From the IMG/VR virus record IMGVR_UViG_3300037193_000219, positions 1 to 29,067 of that record: a stretch of 29,067 nucleotides of DNA, one strand, 5' to 3'. The notes beneath the pieces are model-generated. The model had not been told where the DNA came from and did not search any database. It saw only the letters and a list, made by a program, of their open reading frames with translations. This DNA is from a virus. The position numbers were made by a program, and so were the translations under genes. Shown here in pieces: positions 11,185-17,704 of the stretch. Within the stretch, counting starts at the first letter, position 1. Each line of letters opens with the position of its first letter.

Positions 11185-11494
11185 CATCGACCTGGGTCGG
11201 GTCACCAGCAACCCGCTCACTGAGGTACGGACGGTGCTCTCTCGCGCTGAGAGTGCGCTGTCCGTGCTTCGGCACGCCAAAAACGACCCCGACCTTCGTT
11301 GGTCAGGCGGATACCTCTGGAAGCTTGACGGGGTGTGGGATGGTGCGTATCCTTGGCGTAAGACGGATGAGGAGCTGGAGGAGATCCCGCGAATCGTCCA
11401 CCCAGACCTCGACGAGATGATCGCTAGTCTTGAGGGTGTGGTGGCGAGCCTGAAGAAGTGGGAGCGCACCGGCCGACCTAGGAGGAGGAAGTAG
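11177..11494 (+). CDS. Hypothetical helical protein
   Basis: 105 residues from ATG 11177; the longer frame from 11051 lies inside the previous gene. Two helical segments (LTEVRTVLSRAESALSVLRH and LDEMIASLEGVVASLKKW) flank a Trp/Gly/Asp-rich middle (RWSGGYLWKLDGVWDGAYPW). The C-terminus is basic (RTGRPRRRK). Not recognised. It directly precedes the RNA ligase, and its TAG overlaps the ligase GTG by one base. Confidence 0.65.
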   Translation: MTDIDLGRVTSNPLTEVRTVLSRAESALSVLRHAKNDPDLRWSGGYLWKLDGVWDGAYPWRKTDEELEEIPRIVHPDLDEMIASLEGVVASLKKWERTGRPRRRK

Positions 11495-12639
11495 TGAAGC
11501 TGTTCGACCTGATCGACTACGAGCTTCTGGACGAGATGATCCGCGAAGGGTACATCCGTGAGCGACGCAGCCCGGACGGTGATCTGACGCTCTTGAACTA
11601 CACGGAGAAAGCTCAGTTCGACCGAGTGTGGAACGCGGCCACGATGAACAGTCGAGGTCTGATCTTCAAGACCGTGTTCCCGCACGAGATCGTGGCCCGG
11701 CCATTCTTCAAGTTCTTCAACTACGGCGAGGGCTTGGACTTCAGCCTGGAGGAGCCGGTCGTTGTCACGGACAAGGTCGACGGTAGCTTGGGAATCCTGT
11801 ACAAGGACAGCTCCGGCATGAACCAGATCGCCACGAGGGGTTCGTTCGAGAGCGACCAGGCGCTGCACGCCAGCCATGTCCTGAACACCAAGTACGCGGG
11901 CTTCGAGCCGAAGGAGGGCTGGACGTACCTGTTCGAGATCGTGTACCCGGAGAACCGGATCGTGGTCGACTACGGTGACACCGACGACCTCATCCTGCTC
12001 GGAGCGGTGCACATCGAAAGCGGGTCCGTATTAGGGCCTGACGTCTTCCTGGACTGGCCGGGACCCCACACCGAGGTATTCGGTTACCGGAACCTGCGCG
12101 AGGCTCTCAGCGCGCCTCTCAGGCCCGGGAAGGAGGGTCTCGTTGTCAGGTCAGTCATGGACGACGCGATGGTGAAGATCAAGCAGGAGGACTACGTCTC
12201 TCTGCACCGTGTCGTGACAGGTTTAAACGAGCGAGAGATCTGGCGTCGAGCCCGGGACCTCGACTTGTCCTACGACTACCTGAGCGGTGACGACTTCGCC
12301 TCGCAGGTCATCAACGAGATCCCGGACGAGTTGCACGACTGGGTGGTGCGTGTGTCACTGAGCCTACGGGACATGGTCTACAACAAGCTCAAGCTGGTGA
12401 ACGAGCTGTTCGCGCAGTCTCAGGTTGAGGCTATCGCCCCTGGCGACGAGTGGAAGTCTGAGAGGGGCAGGAAGAAGGCCTTCGCCCTCTGGCTGAACCG
12501 ACAGTGCGGCCTGCCTCTGCTGGCTCAGAAGAACGAGACGAACTGGCTGAAGAAGGCCATGTTCATCAAGTACGACGGGGGAGACCCCCGCCAATACCTG
12601 TGGCGTCTGGTCGAACCGAAGGGAGACGTGAAGAAGTGA
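11494..12639 (+). CDS. T4 RNA ligase 1-type (Rnl1) RNA ligase
   Basis: 381 residues (T4 Rnl1 has 374), GTG start behind GGAGGAGG. Covalent nucleotidyltransferase motifs: upstream Arg in NSRGLIF (R54) and FFKFFNYGE (K73, F75), motif I VTDKVDGSLG (AMP-accepting K94), TRGSFES (R115), motif III/IIIa YLFEIVYPENRIVVDYG (E148), motif IV EGLVVRS (E214) and motif V MVKIKQEDY (K228, K230). The order and spacing follow Rnl1, not Rnl2 or RtcB. It would join 5'-phosphate and 3'-hydroxyl RNA ends such as broken tRNA anticodon loops. A Pnkp-type end-healing enzyme lies two small genes downstream, matching the T4 pair. Family very likely; substrate inferred. Confidence 0.92.
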   Translation: MKLFDLIDYELLDEMIREGYIRERRSPDGDLTLLNYTEKAQFDRVWNAATMNSRGLIFKTVFPHEIVARPFFKFFNYGEGLDFSLEEPVVVTDKVDGSLGILYKDSSGMNQIATRGSFESDQALHASHVLNTKYAGFEPKEGWTYLFEIVYPENRIVVDYGDTDDLILLGAVHIESGSVLGPDVFLDWPGPHTEVFGYRNLREALSAPLRPGKEGLVVRSVMDDAMVKIKQEDYVSLHRVVTGLNEREIWRRARDLDLSYDYLSGDDFASQVINEIPDELHDWVVRVSLSLRDMVYNKLKLVNELFAQSQVEAIAPGDEWKSERGRKKAFALWLNRQCGLPLLAQKNETNWLKKAMFIKYDGGDPRQYLWRLVEPKGDVKK

Positions 12640-13108: not shown

Positions 13109-14056
13109 ATGAGTGAGCAGACTGAACTGCACATCTACCGGGGGATTCAGGGGTCGGGCAAGACCACCCTGGCGAAGACTCTCGCGCTGCTGGACGGTGG
13201 TCGGGTCGTTGGCCGGGACCACATCCGGCGCATGCTGGGTTTCGAGGGGCTCGGCACCAAGAAGCAGGAGGACGAGGTCACCCAGATCCAGACCCGTCTG
13301 ATCCACGGTGGCCTGCGCGCCGGACAGAACGTGCACGTGGACGACATGAACCTGAAGGCCGTGTACGTCAAGCGGCTGATGGGCATCGCCGAGTACTTCG
13401 ACGCTCGGGTCGTGTGGCACGACCTGGCTCGGGTTCCGCTCGAGACCTGCCTGGCCCGCAACGCTGAGCGATCAGTAGGCAGGCTCAACCAGGACGTGAT
13501 CAAGAAGAACTGGGAGCGGTTCATCAAGCCGTTGAACGGCGGCACCTTGCCGATCCCGGAGAAGCCGGAGTTCGACACCAAGTACCTGCCGTTCGAGCCG
13601 TACAAGGCACCCGAAGGTGTGGTCCGGAACGCCGTCCTCATCGATATCGACGGGACCGTGGCCCTGCACGGTACCCCTGGGAACCCCGAGTCCATCCGTA
13701 AGCATCACGACTACGATAAGGTCTGGATGGACGCTCCGAACTACCCGGTCATCAGAGCGGTAAGGTCCATGATCCACGATGGGTACTACCCCATCTTCGT
13801 GTCTGGCCGACCTGATTCTTGCCGCGATGACACCGCTCGATGGATCAACCGGCATGTGAGCACGGCACCCCGCAAGCTGTTCATGCGTCGGACCGGGGAC
13901 CACCGGCCGGACTACCTGGTCAAGTACGAGCTGTTCAACGAGCACGTCAGGGACAACTACTTCGTAGTCGCGGCCTTCGACGACAGGGACCAGGTCGTCA
14001 ACATGTACCGCGAGATCGGGATCACGGTCTTCCAGGTCGCACCGGGGAACTTCTGA
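13109..14056 (+). CDS. T4 Pnkp-type polynucleotide 5'-kinase / 3'-phosphatase
   Basis: 315 residues (T4 Pnkp has 301), with the same two-domain order. Kinase: P-loop RGIQGSGKTT (K18, T19), catalytic VGRDHIRRM (D37, R40) and a lid-like ARNAERSVG (about 116-124). Phosphatase (HAD/DxD): VLIDIDGTVALHG (D179, D181), IFVSGRPDSCRDDTARW (229-245), RKLFMRRTGDHRPDYLVK (255-272) and AAFDDRDQVVNMYRE (288-302). Such enzymes remove 2',3'-cyclic phosphate and add a 5'-phosphate, producing the ends that the nearby Rnl1 ligase seals. All key residues appear intact. It starts directly after the preceding TAG and its stop overlaps the next ATG. Confidence 0.93.
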   Translation: MSEQTELHIYRGIQGSGKTTLAKTLALLDGGRVVGRDHIRRMLGFEGLGTKKQEDEVTQIQTRLIHGGLRAGQNVHVDDMNLKAVYVKRLMGIAEYFDARVVWHDLARVPLETCLARNAERSVGRLNQDVIKKNWERFIKPLNGGTLPIPEKPEFDTKYLPFEPYKAPEGVVRNAVLIDIDGTVALHGTPGNPESIRKHHDYDKVWMDAPNYPVIRAVRSMIHDGYYPIFVSGRPDSCRDDTARWINRHVSTAPRKLFMRRTGDHRPDYLVKYELFNEHVRDNYFVVAAFDDRDQVVNMYREIGITVFQVAPGNF

Positions 14057-14148
14057 TGGAAGGCATCCTGGTTGGCCTGATTCTAGGCGTCGTGATCGTG
14101 GCAATCGCTGAGTTCCTCTGTCAATCACGAGGGGGTGGCGGACGGTGA
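14056..14148 (+). CDS. Tiny membrane protein
   Basis: A 30-residue ORF whose ATG overlaps the Pnkp stop (TGATG). It is nearly all one hydrophobic segment (ILVGLILGVVIVAIAEFL, residues 4-21) with a basic Gly-rich tail (CQSRGGGGR). Its stop overlaps the next GTG as GTGA. Such mini-proteins are common in phage operons; function unknown. Confidence 0.5.
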   Translation: MEGILVGLILGVVIVAIAEFLCQSRGGGGR

Positions 14149-14294
14149 GCAAGAAAGACACCAAGAAGGCTCGACAGGCTGCGGAGAATCGCACTCGGCC
14201 CGAAGCCGTCCAGTGTAAGACCTGCACCGAGTTCTACACCCCAGGCGGTCCTCAAGACCACTACCACACGAGCGGCGCATGTGCGCGCTGCTGA
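14145..14294 (+). CDS. Small basic protein with four-Cys zinc-ribbon-like motif
   Basis: 49 residues; GTG start with a four-base overlap to the previous stop. The N-terminus is very basic (SKKDTKKARQAAENRTRP). Two Cys pairs, CKTC (24-27) and CARC (46-49), enclose a His-rich segment (PQDHYHTSG). This arrangement suggests one zinc ion and nucleic-acid contact. The 3' end overlaps the next ORF by 16 bases. No family is named. Confidence 0.55.
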   Translation: MSKKDTKKARQAAENRTRPEAVQCKTCTEFYTPGGPQDHYHTSGACARC

Positions 14295-14434
14295 TCGCCC
14301 TACCGTTCCTCATCGTCGGAGCTTGGTTCTTTGCTAAGTTTCTGATCTTCGTGATGGTGATCTTGGTAATCTCAGCGGCATTGGCAGGAATCCTAGAGAC
14401 TGTGTTCGGAGGAGGTGACGATGATGAGGACTGA
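14279..14434 (+). CDS. Small two-segment membrane protein
   Basis: 51 residues from an ATG inside the end of the zinc-ribbon ORF. Hydrophobic segments span about 3-19 and 20-43 (LIALPFLIVGAWFF; FLIFVMVILVISAALAGI), followed by a strongly acidic tail (GGGDDDED). It could be a holin-like or inner-membrane protein, but it lies in the early block, away from the lysis genes. No ribosome site is obvious, so translation would depend on coupling. Confidence 0.45.
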   Translation: MCALLIALPFLIVGAWFFAKFLIFVMVILVISAALAGILETVFGGGDDDED

Positions 14435-14475: not shown

Positions 14476-14523
14476 AAAAGCCCCCGGGCTCTTGGACCTA
14501 AGTCCTTGAGCCCGGGGGCTTTT
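14476..14523. terminator. Bidirectional intrinsic terminator at the convergence of the two blocks
   Basis: A perfect 16-bp stem pairs 14476-14491 (AAAAGCCCCCGGGCTC) with 14508-14523, followed on the + strand by a T-run (14520-14524) and, read on the - strand, by TTTT from the left arm. The 16-base loop contains a further GGAC/GTCC pairing. It can end transcription from both sides: the early block (last ORF ends at 14465) and the late block (last gene ends at 14558). Confidence 0.92.
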
Positions 14524-14557: not shown

Positions 14558-14770
14558 TCACTTGTAGCGGTAACCCTGCTTCATGCCGCAGATCGTGGCC
14601 TGCAGGATGCACTTCTCGCCGTGCGTGTGCTCGGTCTTACCGCACACGTTCGAACCCCTCTTCCAGCAAGAGTTCGAGTGGCTGTGCTCCACTGAACCGC
14701 ACACCAGCCTACGGCTGAAGCACGACTGGTTGTGATAATGGACCGTGCCAAGATCCTCGCTCTTTGCCAT
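14558..14770 (-). CDS. Cys/His-rich repeat protein (three HxHxxxC units)
   Basis: 70 residues, ATG preceded by GAGGAGGG on the - strand; last gene of the late block. Three similar units are visible: VHYHNQSCF, EHSHSNSCW and EHTHGEKCI, the last two each preceded by VCG (LVCGSVEHSHSNSCW, NVCGKTEHTHGEKC). The pattern C-G-x-x-E-H-x-H-x(3)-C resembles CGxEEHTHxxxC repeats that I recall from Gram-positive surface proteins. Evenly spaced Cys and His imply metal binding. No signal peptide or membrane segment is seen. I do not know a function. Confidence 0.75.
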   Translation of the reverse strand: MAKSEDLGTVHYHNQSCFSRRLVCGSVEHSHSNSCWKRGSNVCGKTEHTHGEKCILQATICGMKQGYRYK

Positions 14771-14780
14771 GGGACCCTCC

Positions 14781-15299
14781 TCAGGTCTTCTGGTCGTCGG
14801 CCTTTGCCTTCTTCGGAAGAGGAAGGCTGACCAACCATAGCACAGTCAGCATGATCTGCACAACCAAGCTTGGTGGTACAACCACGGGGGCTGACAGCAA
14901 CAGAACCAGGAGCAACCTGGGAAGGGTCCTGAGGCTTCCTCTCCGGCGCTTGGGGTTGCCGATGGCACCAAGCCTCACCCCGGCCCACATAACCCACCTA
15001 CGGGGAAATGAGACGCCAGAGGCCTTCATAGCCTGATAGAACATCCAGTCCACGTGTGTCGACGTGATGTAGCCAGTCGGCAGCATGTGCGTGATCAACC
15101 AGTCGTGAAGCACGGCCGCCTTAGAGTGCAAGCCGGTGCGCGGGTACAGCCAGGCCGTGGCTCTAGGTACCGATGCGAAGTCGGTGACGTAGCCTTCCGG
15201 CACGCGGTACTCGACGTCCTTGGTCTTGAAGACCAGGTCGGAGAGGAGACGCCAGTCTCGGCTGTCAACCTCTCCGACCTTCAGGTCCGTGATGAACAT
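14781..15299 (-). CDS. DUF1353 family protein with C-terminal hydrophobic hairpin
   Basis: 172 residues. Residues 20-112 match DUF1353 by its signature segments: VPEGYVTDFASVPRATAWLY (33-52), AAVLHDWLI (61-69, His65-Asp66-Trp67), VDWMFYQAM (83-91) and RRWVMWAGVRLGA (100-112). The conserved His and Asp suggest a metal or catalytic centre, but the family role is not established. Residues 128-160 are strongly hydrophobic (LLLVLLLSAPVVVPP, LVVQIMLTVLWLVSL), giving two membrane segments, followed by a Lys-rich end. Such proteins are frequent near phage lysis genes. It overlaps the endolysin stop by one base. Confidence 0.8.
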   Translation of the reverse strand: MFITDLKVGEVDSRDWRLLSDLVFKTKDVEYRVPEGYVTDFASVPRATAWLYPRTGLHSKAAVLHDWLITHMLPTGYITSTHVDWMFYQAMKASGVSFPRRWVMWAGVRLGAIGNPKRRRGSLRTLPRLLLVLLLSAPVVVPPSLVVQIMLTVLWLVSLPLPKKAKADDQKT

Positions 15300-16126
15300 C
15301 AGACCTGCGGGTAACCCGCGATGTCGATGTCCACGTTCACGGTGTTCTCTCGCAGGGCCTTGGCCGTGCCCTCTTCGGCCGCTTGCCGGACCGCGTCGAG
15401 GTCGACCTCACCATCAGCCGCCAGGCTCTGCACCGCCGTGAGCAGCGCGGAGACCTGACCCTGCAGCGAAGCCACCATGGCACGAACCGCCTTGGCGTTC
15501 TGTTGGGCGTTCAGCCAGACCCAACCCCACTTGTCCGGGCCAGGGTCCCTGACCACGTCGGTTGGCTGCATGTCGTTGTCCTCCTGAACGGTTCCACTCA
15601 GATACTGCTGGACCAGCGAACGAAACGCTGGCATGTCGCCGGGGATCCCGACGGGGTCGATCTTCCGACCGACTGGGTAACAGACCTCCTTGTGCCCAAG
15701 CACTCGAGACACCGGAACGCCGTACCGCTTGCACAAGGCCGCCACCAGCTTGGCTGTAGCGTGCACCTGCACCGAAGGCCACTCAGGGCCAGTACCAACC
15801 GACTCGACCTCGATGCCGATGGAGTTGGCGTTGTTCATCCAGGTCTCCTTGACCGTGCCCGCGTGGTACGCGAGACCGTTCGAGAAGACGTAGACCTTGC
15901 CACTCCGGCCGACGCCGAGCTGAGCGAGCGGCCCCGGGAGACCAGTCCGACCGTTCCGTACGACGTTGTACGAAGGGTAATCACCGGTTGGAGAACCGGC
16001 TGTGTGGTGGATGACGATGCAGGACACCGAATTCATCGCACCGTGGTTGTGGCCAACCCAACCGGGAGCCTCATGAACCGTAAGGCCCATGCCCCTAGCC
16101 AGAGAGGCCAGGTCGTTCAGCAGCAT
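15299..16126 (-). CDS. Endolysin: N-acetylmuramoyl-L-alanine amidase (amidase_2/PGRP fold)
   Basis: 275 residues. The amidase domain covers about 10-175: CIVIHHTAG (zinc ligand H40, with H41), GLAYHAGT (H88), NANSIGIEVESVG (E107 region) and VLGHKEVCYPVGRKIDP, with H145 and D157 as the remaining zinc ligands and K155 in the usual catalytic Lys place. It cleaves the amide bond between MurNAc and the stem peptide. Residues 175-275 hold an Ala/Gln-rich predicted coiled coil (QQNAKAVRAMVASLQGQVSA) instead of a recognised cell-wall-binding domain. There is no signal peptide, so release depends on a holin; two candidates lie upstream in the same operon. A small hairpin covers its start codon. Confidence 0.92.
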   Translation of the reverse strand: MLLNDLASLARGMGLTVHEAPGWVGHNHGAMNSVSCIVIHHTAGSPTGDYPSYNVVRNGRTGLPGPLAQLGVGRSGKVYVFSNGLAYHAGTVKETWMNNANSIGIEVESVGTGPEWPSVQVHATAKLVAALCKRYGVPVSRVLGHKEVCYPVGRKIDPVGIPGDMPAFRSLVQQYLSGTVQEDNDMQPTDVVRDPGPDKWGWVWLNAQQNAKAVRAMVASLQGQVSALLTAVQSLAADGEVDLDAVRQAAEEGTAKALRENTVNVDIDIAGYPQV

Positions 16127-16138: not shown

Positions 16139-16915
16139 TCATCCGGACGAACAAGGGACGTCCAGGATCACATCGTGGGTCTGTTCGGTACCGACCCCCG
16201 AAGGGTCGTACACGTGAAAGGTGATCGTGCATTGCAATGGTGTCGGCCCAGAGGCCTGGGTTATGGCCACCACGCTCGCACCATCAACACCATCTGCTCC
16301 GTCCTCCCCGTCCTTACCTGCGGGTCCGACATCACCCATGCAGGGTTGTGAAGCCTGCGAGCAGTAAGCCGCTACAGCCTCCGCGATCGTGGCCGGAGGG
16401 GTAGGAGGCGCGTCTTGGCCCCTAGGACCCTCTGTGCCAGGCTGTCCCTGCTCCCCGGGCTTACCAGTCTCACCCGGCTTACCAGGCTCTCCAGGACGCC
16501 CCTGGGTGCCCTTAAAGCGTGGGTCTGACCTGATGTCCTCAAGCACGATGGCCGAGGCCGCAGCAGCCAGCGCCTGGACGTCGACCTCCTGGCCCGGAGC
16601 GGGCAGAGGGATCTCAGGCAGTCCGGCCTCAACGCGGAGCTTGTTCGCCTCGCGCAGATCCTTGATGTCTTCCTCATTCACCGTGGCCCGAGCAGTGATT
16701 TTGGCGATGTCCTCGGAGTTGTTCCCCGATTCGATGGAGTTCCAGGTCGACCAGGCCATGGACAAGAGGGCGATGATCAAAGAAACGACCACCACGATCT
16801 GGTTCTTCCGGTCGACCCGGCGCTCAATCTTCTCAACCTTGGGTACCTGCTCGACCTCGACTAATGCCGCGTCGAGATTAGCCAGAGGCTCCCCGTTGCC
16901 TCTTGAGGTAGTCAT
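16139..16915 (-). CDS. Membrane-anchored collagen-like protein
   Basis: 258 residues from the ATG at 16915 (MTTSRGNGEP), 38 bases inside the upstream gene; the longer frame from 16987 is less likely. A charged N-terminal region (1-38) precedes one membrane segment (39-58, IVVVVSLIIALLSMAWSTW), then a helical linker (65-130). Eleven uninterrupted Gly-X-Y triplets (136-168, rich in GKP, GEP and GQP) follow. After a spacer with two Cys comes a second run of six triplets (194-211) and a C-terminal beta-like domain with Cys229 and Cys255. This predicts a trimeric stalk outside the membrane. It lies between holin-like genes and the endolysin, so a link to lysis or cell-surface change is possible but unproven. 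Confidence 0.82.
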   Translation of the reverse strand: MTTSRGNGEPLANLDAALVEVEQVPKVEKIERRVDRKNQIVVVVSLIIALLSMAWSTWNSIESGNNSEDIAKITARATVNEEDIKDLREANKLRVEAGLPEIPLPAPGQEVDVQALAAAASAIVLEDIRSDPRFKGTQGRPGEPGKPGETGKPGEQGQPGTEGPRGQDAPPTPPATIAEAVAAYCSQASQPCMGDVGPAGKDGEDGADGVDGASVVAITQASGPTPLQCTITFHVYDPSGVGTEQTHDVILDVPCSSG

Positions 16916-17285
16916 TCTCCGTCTCCAGTTCTCGTACTCGATCGTCGAGCTTCTCGATCTGCTTCTCACGAGCCTCGATCCGAGCACGAAGCTCTGCCGT
17001 CTCAGCTGCGTGCTCCACCTTCATGGCAGCGATTTCAGCCCTCATGGCATCCATCTGCTCACGCACCAGCTTGACCGCCTCACGTGCCGCAGCCACGGCA
17101 CCAACCTCTCCTTCGAGATCTGCCTTCCGATCTTCGCGCTTCTCCTTGCGGCTGTCTATCCAGACCTTGAACAAGAATCCGAGTAGACCAACCGCAGCGG
17201 CTAACGGTCCCGAAGTACCTAGGAACTGAGCCCAAGAGAAAGGCTGCGCCTCCACAGTCTGCTGTAGCAGCAGGGTCCACGTCAT
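16878..17285 (-). CDS. Holin-like single-span membrane protein with coiled coil
   Basis: 135 residues, ATGA overlap with the upstream gene. One hydrophobic segment (about 22-43, LGTSGPLAAAVGLLGFLF) is followed by a highly charged region (DSRKEKREDRKADLE) and a long coiled coil (70-130, VEHAAETAELRARIEAREKQ). The N-terminus is short and probably outside. Phages of actinobacteria often carry a second small membrane protein of this kind beside the holin; a holin or holin-regulator role is inferred from position only. Confidence 0.7.
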   Translation of the reverse strand: MTWTLLLQQTVEAQPFSWAQFLGTSGPLAAAVGLLGFLFKVWIDSRKEKREDRKADLEGEVGAVAAAREAVKLVREQMDAMRAEIAAMKVEHAAETAELRARIEAREKQIEKLDDRVRELETENDYLKRQRGASG

Positions 17286-17704
17286 CGCCCTTCTCCCTGT
17301 CTCATCCCGTTGGCCAGATCTGCCAGCTCCTCCGCGAGCTTCTTTTCTTCCTGTCGTTCGCGCCGCTCGCTTAGGATATCGCTGACGCTTTGCATGGCGA
17401 ATGCCCCGAACAGGAAGGCGTACGCCAAGACCCGGGTACCGCCCGCGAAGGCGATAACCAAGGAGATCGTAGTAAGGCCCACGGCCACCACGAGGAGACC
17501 GGCTAAGCGCAACTTCTTGTGCCCCATCATGCCGAGCATAAGAAGTCCGCCAGCCGCGAAGAATTCCACACCGAGCATTATTTCAGCCCAGTACGGTGCT
17601 GCGCGTTCGAAGCTCACAATCGGATAGATCGTCGAGTAAGCTCCGAACGCCATCAGCAGAAGGTAAATCCCGAGGCGAGGCCATTCCCGCCTCAGGGTTT
17701 CCAT
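17282..17704 (-). CDS. Putative holin (four transmembrane segments)
   Basis: 140 residues with four hydrophobic stretches: about 11-30 (LGIYLLLMAFGAYSTIYPIV), 38-61 (YWAEIMLGVEFFAAGGLLML), 66-88 (RLAGLLVVAVGLTTISLVIA) and 91-110 (VLAYAFLFGAFAMQSVS). A charged cytoplasmic tail follows (RRERQEEKKLAEELADLA). Size, multi-span layout, charged tail and position just upstream of the endolysin fit a holin, although holins have no diagnostic motif. It follows the deacetylase gene by one base. Confidence 0.65.
   Translation of the reverse strand: METLRREWPRLGIYLLLMAFGAYSTIYPIVSFERAAPYWAEIMLGVEFFAAGGLLMLGMMGHKKLRLAGLLVVAVGLTTISLVIAFAGGTRVLAYAFLFGAFAMQSVSDILSERRERQEEKKLAEELADLANGMRQGEGR

Follow-up and report, generated by a model that had tools for sequence, protein, structure and literature searches.

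Genome layout and the end of the late operon

The stretch of DNA analysed here (the window) is a whole virus record of 29,067 bases, possibly a fragment. Judging from its protein similarities, the virus is an actinobacterial tailed phage: the DNA polymerase is 61% identical to its counterpart in Mycobacterium abscessus prophages, and the tape measure protein and the endolysin have matches in phages of Streptomyces, Gordonia, Mycobacterium and Arthrobacter. For an 850-aa tail protein, searches of viral contigs and phages gave no relative within the limits applied. The early genes occupy the plus strand up to about position 14,434 and the late genes the minus strand between 28,776 and 14,558, the two convergent transcripts being separated by a strong two-way intrinsic terminator (14477-14523, approximate; -45 kcal/mol, z -7.6). 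The plus strand also carries genes for an RNA ligase (PF09511, RNA_lig_T4_1; 11494-12639) and a polynucleotide kinase-phosphatase (AAA_33 and HAD_PNKP domains; 13109-14056), a pair of the RNA-repair type that phage T4 employs against tRNA cleavage.

The late operon ends with three closely spaced minus-strand genes. The first encodes an endolysin of the Amidase_2 family (15299-16126; E 4.3e-23), whose stop codon overlaps by one base the start of the second, which encodes a 172-aa DUF1353 protein (14781-15299; PF07087, E 6.5e-28). The third, at 14558-14770, encodes a 70-aa protein, here called P0001, and ends just ahead of the terminator. Gene order and Pfam matches thus agree with the initial annotation, which had described P0001 as the product of the last late gene, next to DUF1353 and the endolysin. 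Upstream of the endolysin, a protein encoded at 17282-17704 (minus strand) has several hydrophobic segments and looks holin-like by eye, and the product of 16878-17285 (minus strand) has weak matches to hol-like and spanin-type PHROGs. Among the tail and lysis genes there is also one for a PIG-L type deacetylase (PF02585; 17706-18359, minus strand).

A 70-residue protein made of three His/Cys units

The P0001 reading frame is exact, starts with ATG and has no further ATG, GTG or TTG start in frame upstream. A Shine-Dalgarno sequence, GGAGGG (14775-14780, minus strand), directly follows the DUF1353 stop codon (14781-14783), and the P0001 start codon lies 10 nt past that stop, making the two proteins probable co-translation partners. 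The synonymous-codon score of the frame, 0.31 bits per codon, is among the best of the phage, and the scores of the two other frames of the same strand are negative. By its coding and translation signals the open reading frame is real. That it might stay untranslated is extremely improbable: the strong codon bias, the ribosome site, the position in the operon and the ordered repeat in its product all argue against such a reading.

The complete product, MAKSEDLGTVHYHNQSCFSRRLVCGSVEHSHSNSCWKRGSNVCGKTEHTHGEKCILQATICGMKQGYRYK, has a pI of about 9 and a net charge of +5, and neither a signal peptide nor a transmembrane segment was found in it, the most hydrophobic 19-mer scoring -0.16. Residues 11-65 are taken up by three consecutive units of the form HxHxxxC-x(5-7)-[VI]CG, delimited by sequence and profile: unit A (residues 11-28; HYHNQSCFSRRLVCGSVE; 14687-14740), unit B (residues 29-47; HSHSNSCWKRGSNVCGKTE; 14630-14686) and unit C (residues 48-65; HTHGEKCILQATICGMKQ; 14576-14629), all on the minus strand and reading HYHNQSC-FSRRLV-CGSVE, HSHSNSC-WKRGSNV-CGKTE and HTHGEKC-ILQATI-CGMKQ. 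All 12 His and Cys residues of the protein fit this pattern and form three complete four-ligand sets. As noted initially, VCG precedes two of the units, the second and the third; ICG follows the third. The three HxHxxxC units, likewise recognised at the outset, exceed chance expectation, since no reading frame in 200 shuffles of the window held more than two HxHx3C motifs, and the two exact DNA matches to CGxxEHxHxxxC in the window compare with none in 100 dinucleotide shuffles.

No model in Pfam, PHROGs, NCBIfam or PADLOC matched P0001 above the cut-off. Weak Kazal and hirudin matches in Pfam fell below it and were rejected, and the sequence matches in the PDB look like noise. An AlphaFold2 model computed without relatives reached a pLDDT of 53.7, too poor for a fold search.

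The spacing of the ligands makes zinc binding likely. With H11, H13, C17 and C24, then H29, H31, C35 and C43, and finally H48, H50, C54 and C61 as ligand sets, each unit of 18-19 residues would supply four ligands, and binding of three Zn(II) ions would be expected to give three compact folded modules, with basic residues (SRR, KRG) in the loops and a tail that is basic too. A grouping by CGxxEHxHxxxC, in which C61 closes on H11, H13 and C17, appears equally possible. The classical C2H2 zinc fingers (PF00096) also employ two Cys and two His per unit; their CxxC...HxxxH arrangement differs from the HxHx3Cx(6,7)C order and spacing of P0001, which has no PF00096 match.

Twelve potential ligands in 70 residues would also suit a metallothionein-like buffer that takes up zinc or copper late in infection or after release, and metallothioneins are similarly small and ligand-rich. 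However, metallothioneins are rich in Cys arranged as CxC or CC, whereas P0001 has only 6 Cys among its 70 residues, lacks both arrangements and has no match to a metallothionein model in Pfam. In P0001, pairs of Cys and of His recur regularly, with the spacing of a four-ligand site for a single ion rather than of a cluster, and the agreement at non-ligand residues described below argues for a folded structural site, so that a buffering role is improbable.

Relation to surface-protein repeats of Lachnospiraceae

The initial annotation had likened the units to repeats of large surface proteins of Gram-positive bacteria. This likeness was evaluated with a profile of two consecutive units, built from Lachnospiraceae-type surface-protein repeats only and leaving out P0001. 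The profile scores P0001 at 44.5 bits, above the maxima obtained with 5,000 plain shuffles of the protein (13.7 bits) and with 5,000 shuffles in which Cys and His were held fixed (40.2 bits, mean 13), and the best unrelated frame among 9,941 six-frame ORFs reached 15.2 bits. The likeness therefore stands and exceeds what ligand spacing alone would give: the G after C, the E before H and the aromatic residue after C match as well.

The surface arrays compared (20 proteins, L046-L065) follow the pattern CGxxEHxHxxxC[YF]-x(4-9)-LxCG. P0001 shares this unit, including the G, E, hydrophobic and aromatic residues outside the ligands, carries at least three units in tandem as they do, and is 28-39% identical to them over the aligned array. 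On these sequence features P0001 is a clear variant of a repeat type that is known but has no name. It does not qualify as a surface protein of the repeat-bearing kind. The surface proteins are large, some with CHAP or Big domains, and 17/20 have an N-terminal membrane segment, whereas P0001 is a stand-alone, domain-free protein of 70 aa that lacks such a segment. Its array is basic (+3 over 54 aa) and those of all 20 surface proteins are acidic (-5 to -31 per 100 aa). Finally, the P0001 array starts with HxH and ends with CG, a shift of half a unit relative to the surface arrays, of which nearly all have C at the start and HxHxxxC at the end.

In 17 of the 20 surface proteins the array lies 13-31 residues beyond the N-terminal membrane segment. 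The array behind this segment, with CHAP or Big domains frequently following it, is an unnamed module; CHAP was found in 6 of 10 proteins tested (four above the Pfam cut-off and two below it). The surface arrays tested matched no model in Pfam or NCBIfam. Literature searches covering the motif, repeats of surface proteins and metallothionein-like proteins of phages surfaced nothing that evidently describes the repeat.

A search with the repeat itself as query found it encoded by 31/299 genomes in a sample of the family to which Lachnospiraceae bacterium 3-1 belongs, most of the open frames being 1,000-3,000 aa long. In wider samples it was found in 2/299 genomes of the same phylum, in 1/396 genomes of Actinomycetota (within a large surface-type protein) and in 0/249 of Pseudomonadota. 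No occurrence was found in the plasmids searched. Matches of tblastn in actinobacteria were rejected, the 15 loci fetched having failed against the profile. The one match among 50,697 phage records comes from an unverified faecal scaffold, where the array lies inside a longer open frame and is not a stand-alone gene. Viral contigs yielded no stand-alone array, either with a DNA pattern limited to TGC-start codons or with a scan derived from the profile; these scans cover TGC codons best, so that AT-rich phages are under-sampled and the absence of the repeat is limited evidence. A profile search of eight related phage records also gave no match. At this limited sensitivity, no stand-alone relative of P0001 was found in other phages, plasmids or sampled bacterial genomes, consistent with the initial remark that the motif is not seen as a stand-alone phage protein. 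As the unit is otherwise found in big surface proteins of gut Firmicutes, P0001 is an unusual stand-alone version.

The profile match favours, without proving, common descent of P0001 and the surface repeats. Convergence on the spacing of a metal site, which would be compatible with any role of the protein, is a serious possibility that we nevertheless rate somewhat below even chances. It is suggested by the lack of intermediates in phages, plasmids and sampled actinobacteria, by the half-unit shift and opposite charge of the arrays, and by the codon usage of P0001, which is that of the phage itself and thus indicates no recent import. The score above all 5,000 Cys/His-fixed shuffles and the matching G, E, V/I and aromatic positions speak for descent, although functional constraint on non-ligand positions could still produce such agreement.

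Possible role at the end of the lysis cassette

Tentatively, and with confidence well short of one half, P0001 is proposed to assist the lysis cassette as a late cytosolic protein with a zinc array, serving as a small binding factor or adaptor. It would be produced along with the amidase endolysin and the DUF1353 protein, which is of membrane type, might bind an anionic partner (an envelope polymer, the membrane surface or the DUF1353 protein itself), and might thereby adjust or localise the attack on the envelope. Membership in the cassette has positional support from the one-base overlap and the 10-nt junction, and the closeness of the gene to DUF1353 points to a common task. Gene order by itself, however, proves no lysis role, and late operons can close with assorted small genes. 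No P0001-like gene adjoins the DUF1353 relatives compared (L009-L012). As no second phage copy of P0001 was found, there is no conserved neighbourhood, which counts against the proposal.

The enzymatic context is provided by TtaP, a DUF1353 protein with phospholipase A2 activity that is abolished by mutation of the catalytic Asp (PMC11525133). The catalytic His of TtaP is followed by an Asp, as in the DUF1353 protein of the window, whose HD pair (H65 D66) is invariant in five aligned relatives and which has a hydrophobic C-terminal segment. By analogy, this protein may be a phospholipase. A fold search with it gave a best Z of 4.0; a rice PLA2 (Z 3.5, 76 aligned at rmsd 4.5) ranked level with unrelated folds. 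The TtaP activity, the HD pair, the hydrophobic C-terminal stretch and the cassette junctions lead us to favour an accessory of envelope attack over the other roles considered. The proposal is also in keeping with the codon bias and ribosome site of the gene, with the 12 regularly spaced Cys and His residues and the significant profile match, with the frequent proximity of surface arrays to a cell-wall hydrolase (CHAP), and with the basic charge that sets P0001 apart from the acidic surface arrays.

Next in rank, and rather unlikely, P0001 would act late in infection as a small binder of nucleic acid or of a host protein, resembling a zinc finger and unrelated to lysis, and its place after DUF1353 would be accidental. 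The basic loops and tail, the net positive charge and the lack of a membrane segment would suit such a binder, as would the occurrence of other small Cys/His ORFs in phage-classed contigs (CxxCxxC...CGxREHxHCxxCGHC) and of one in this same phage across the terminator (14145-14294). Against it stand the lack of above-cut-off similarity to any nucleic-acid-binding zinc-finger model and the tight packing behind DUF1353. Two of the contig ORFs (L088:2154-2288 and L089:9814-10284) resemble P0001 in being small and in having the CGxxEHxHxxxC motif, but they contain it once, in a zinc-ribbon-like CxxCxxC/CxxCxxxH arrangement rather than an array, and do not match the profile. They have CxNCERCTWNPGxDCGxREHxHCExCGHCxGRH in common and look like a zinc-ribbon family. 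The ORF across the terminator, on the plus strand, encodes 49 aa (CxxC...DHYHTSGACARC) and is another candidate metal protein, small and rich in Cys and His, with a weak coding signal and no family match.

A virion decoration or tail-tip component is a very doubtful reading: the gene is late and lies downstream of the tail genes, but the lysis genes intervene and P0001 has no similarity to virion proteins. In the most specific form of the preferred lysis-accessory reading, P0001 would be a metal-dependent lysis factor of an undescribed kind: an unnamed zinc-repeat module, seen elsewhere next to cell-wall hydrolases in surface proteins of Gram-positive bacteria, would have been domesticated by the phage to act freely in the cytosol as a partner controlling the lysis pair of DUF1353 phospholipase and amidase. 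This form is speculative and improbable as it stands.

The repeat unit occurs in about one in ten of the genomes sampled from one bacterial family, but neither Pfam nor NCBIfam has a model for it. P0001, a minimal form with three units that is probably soluble and could be expressed intact, would make the metal content and fold of this repeat directly testable. If it proves to be tied to the putative DUF1353 phospholipase, it would bear on how actinophages attack membranes.
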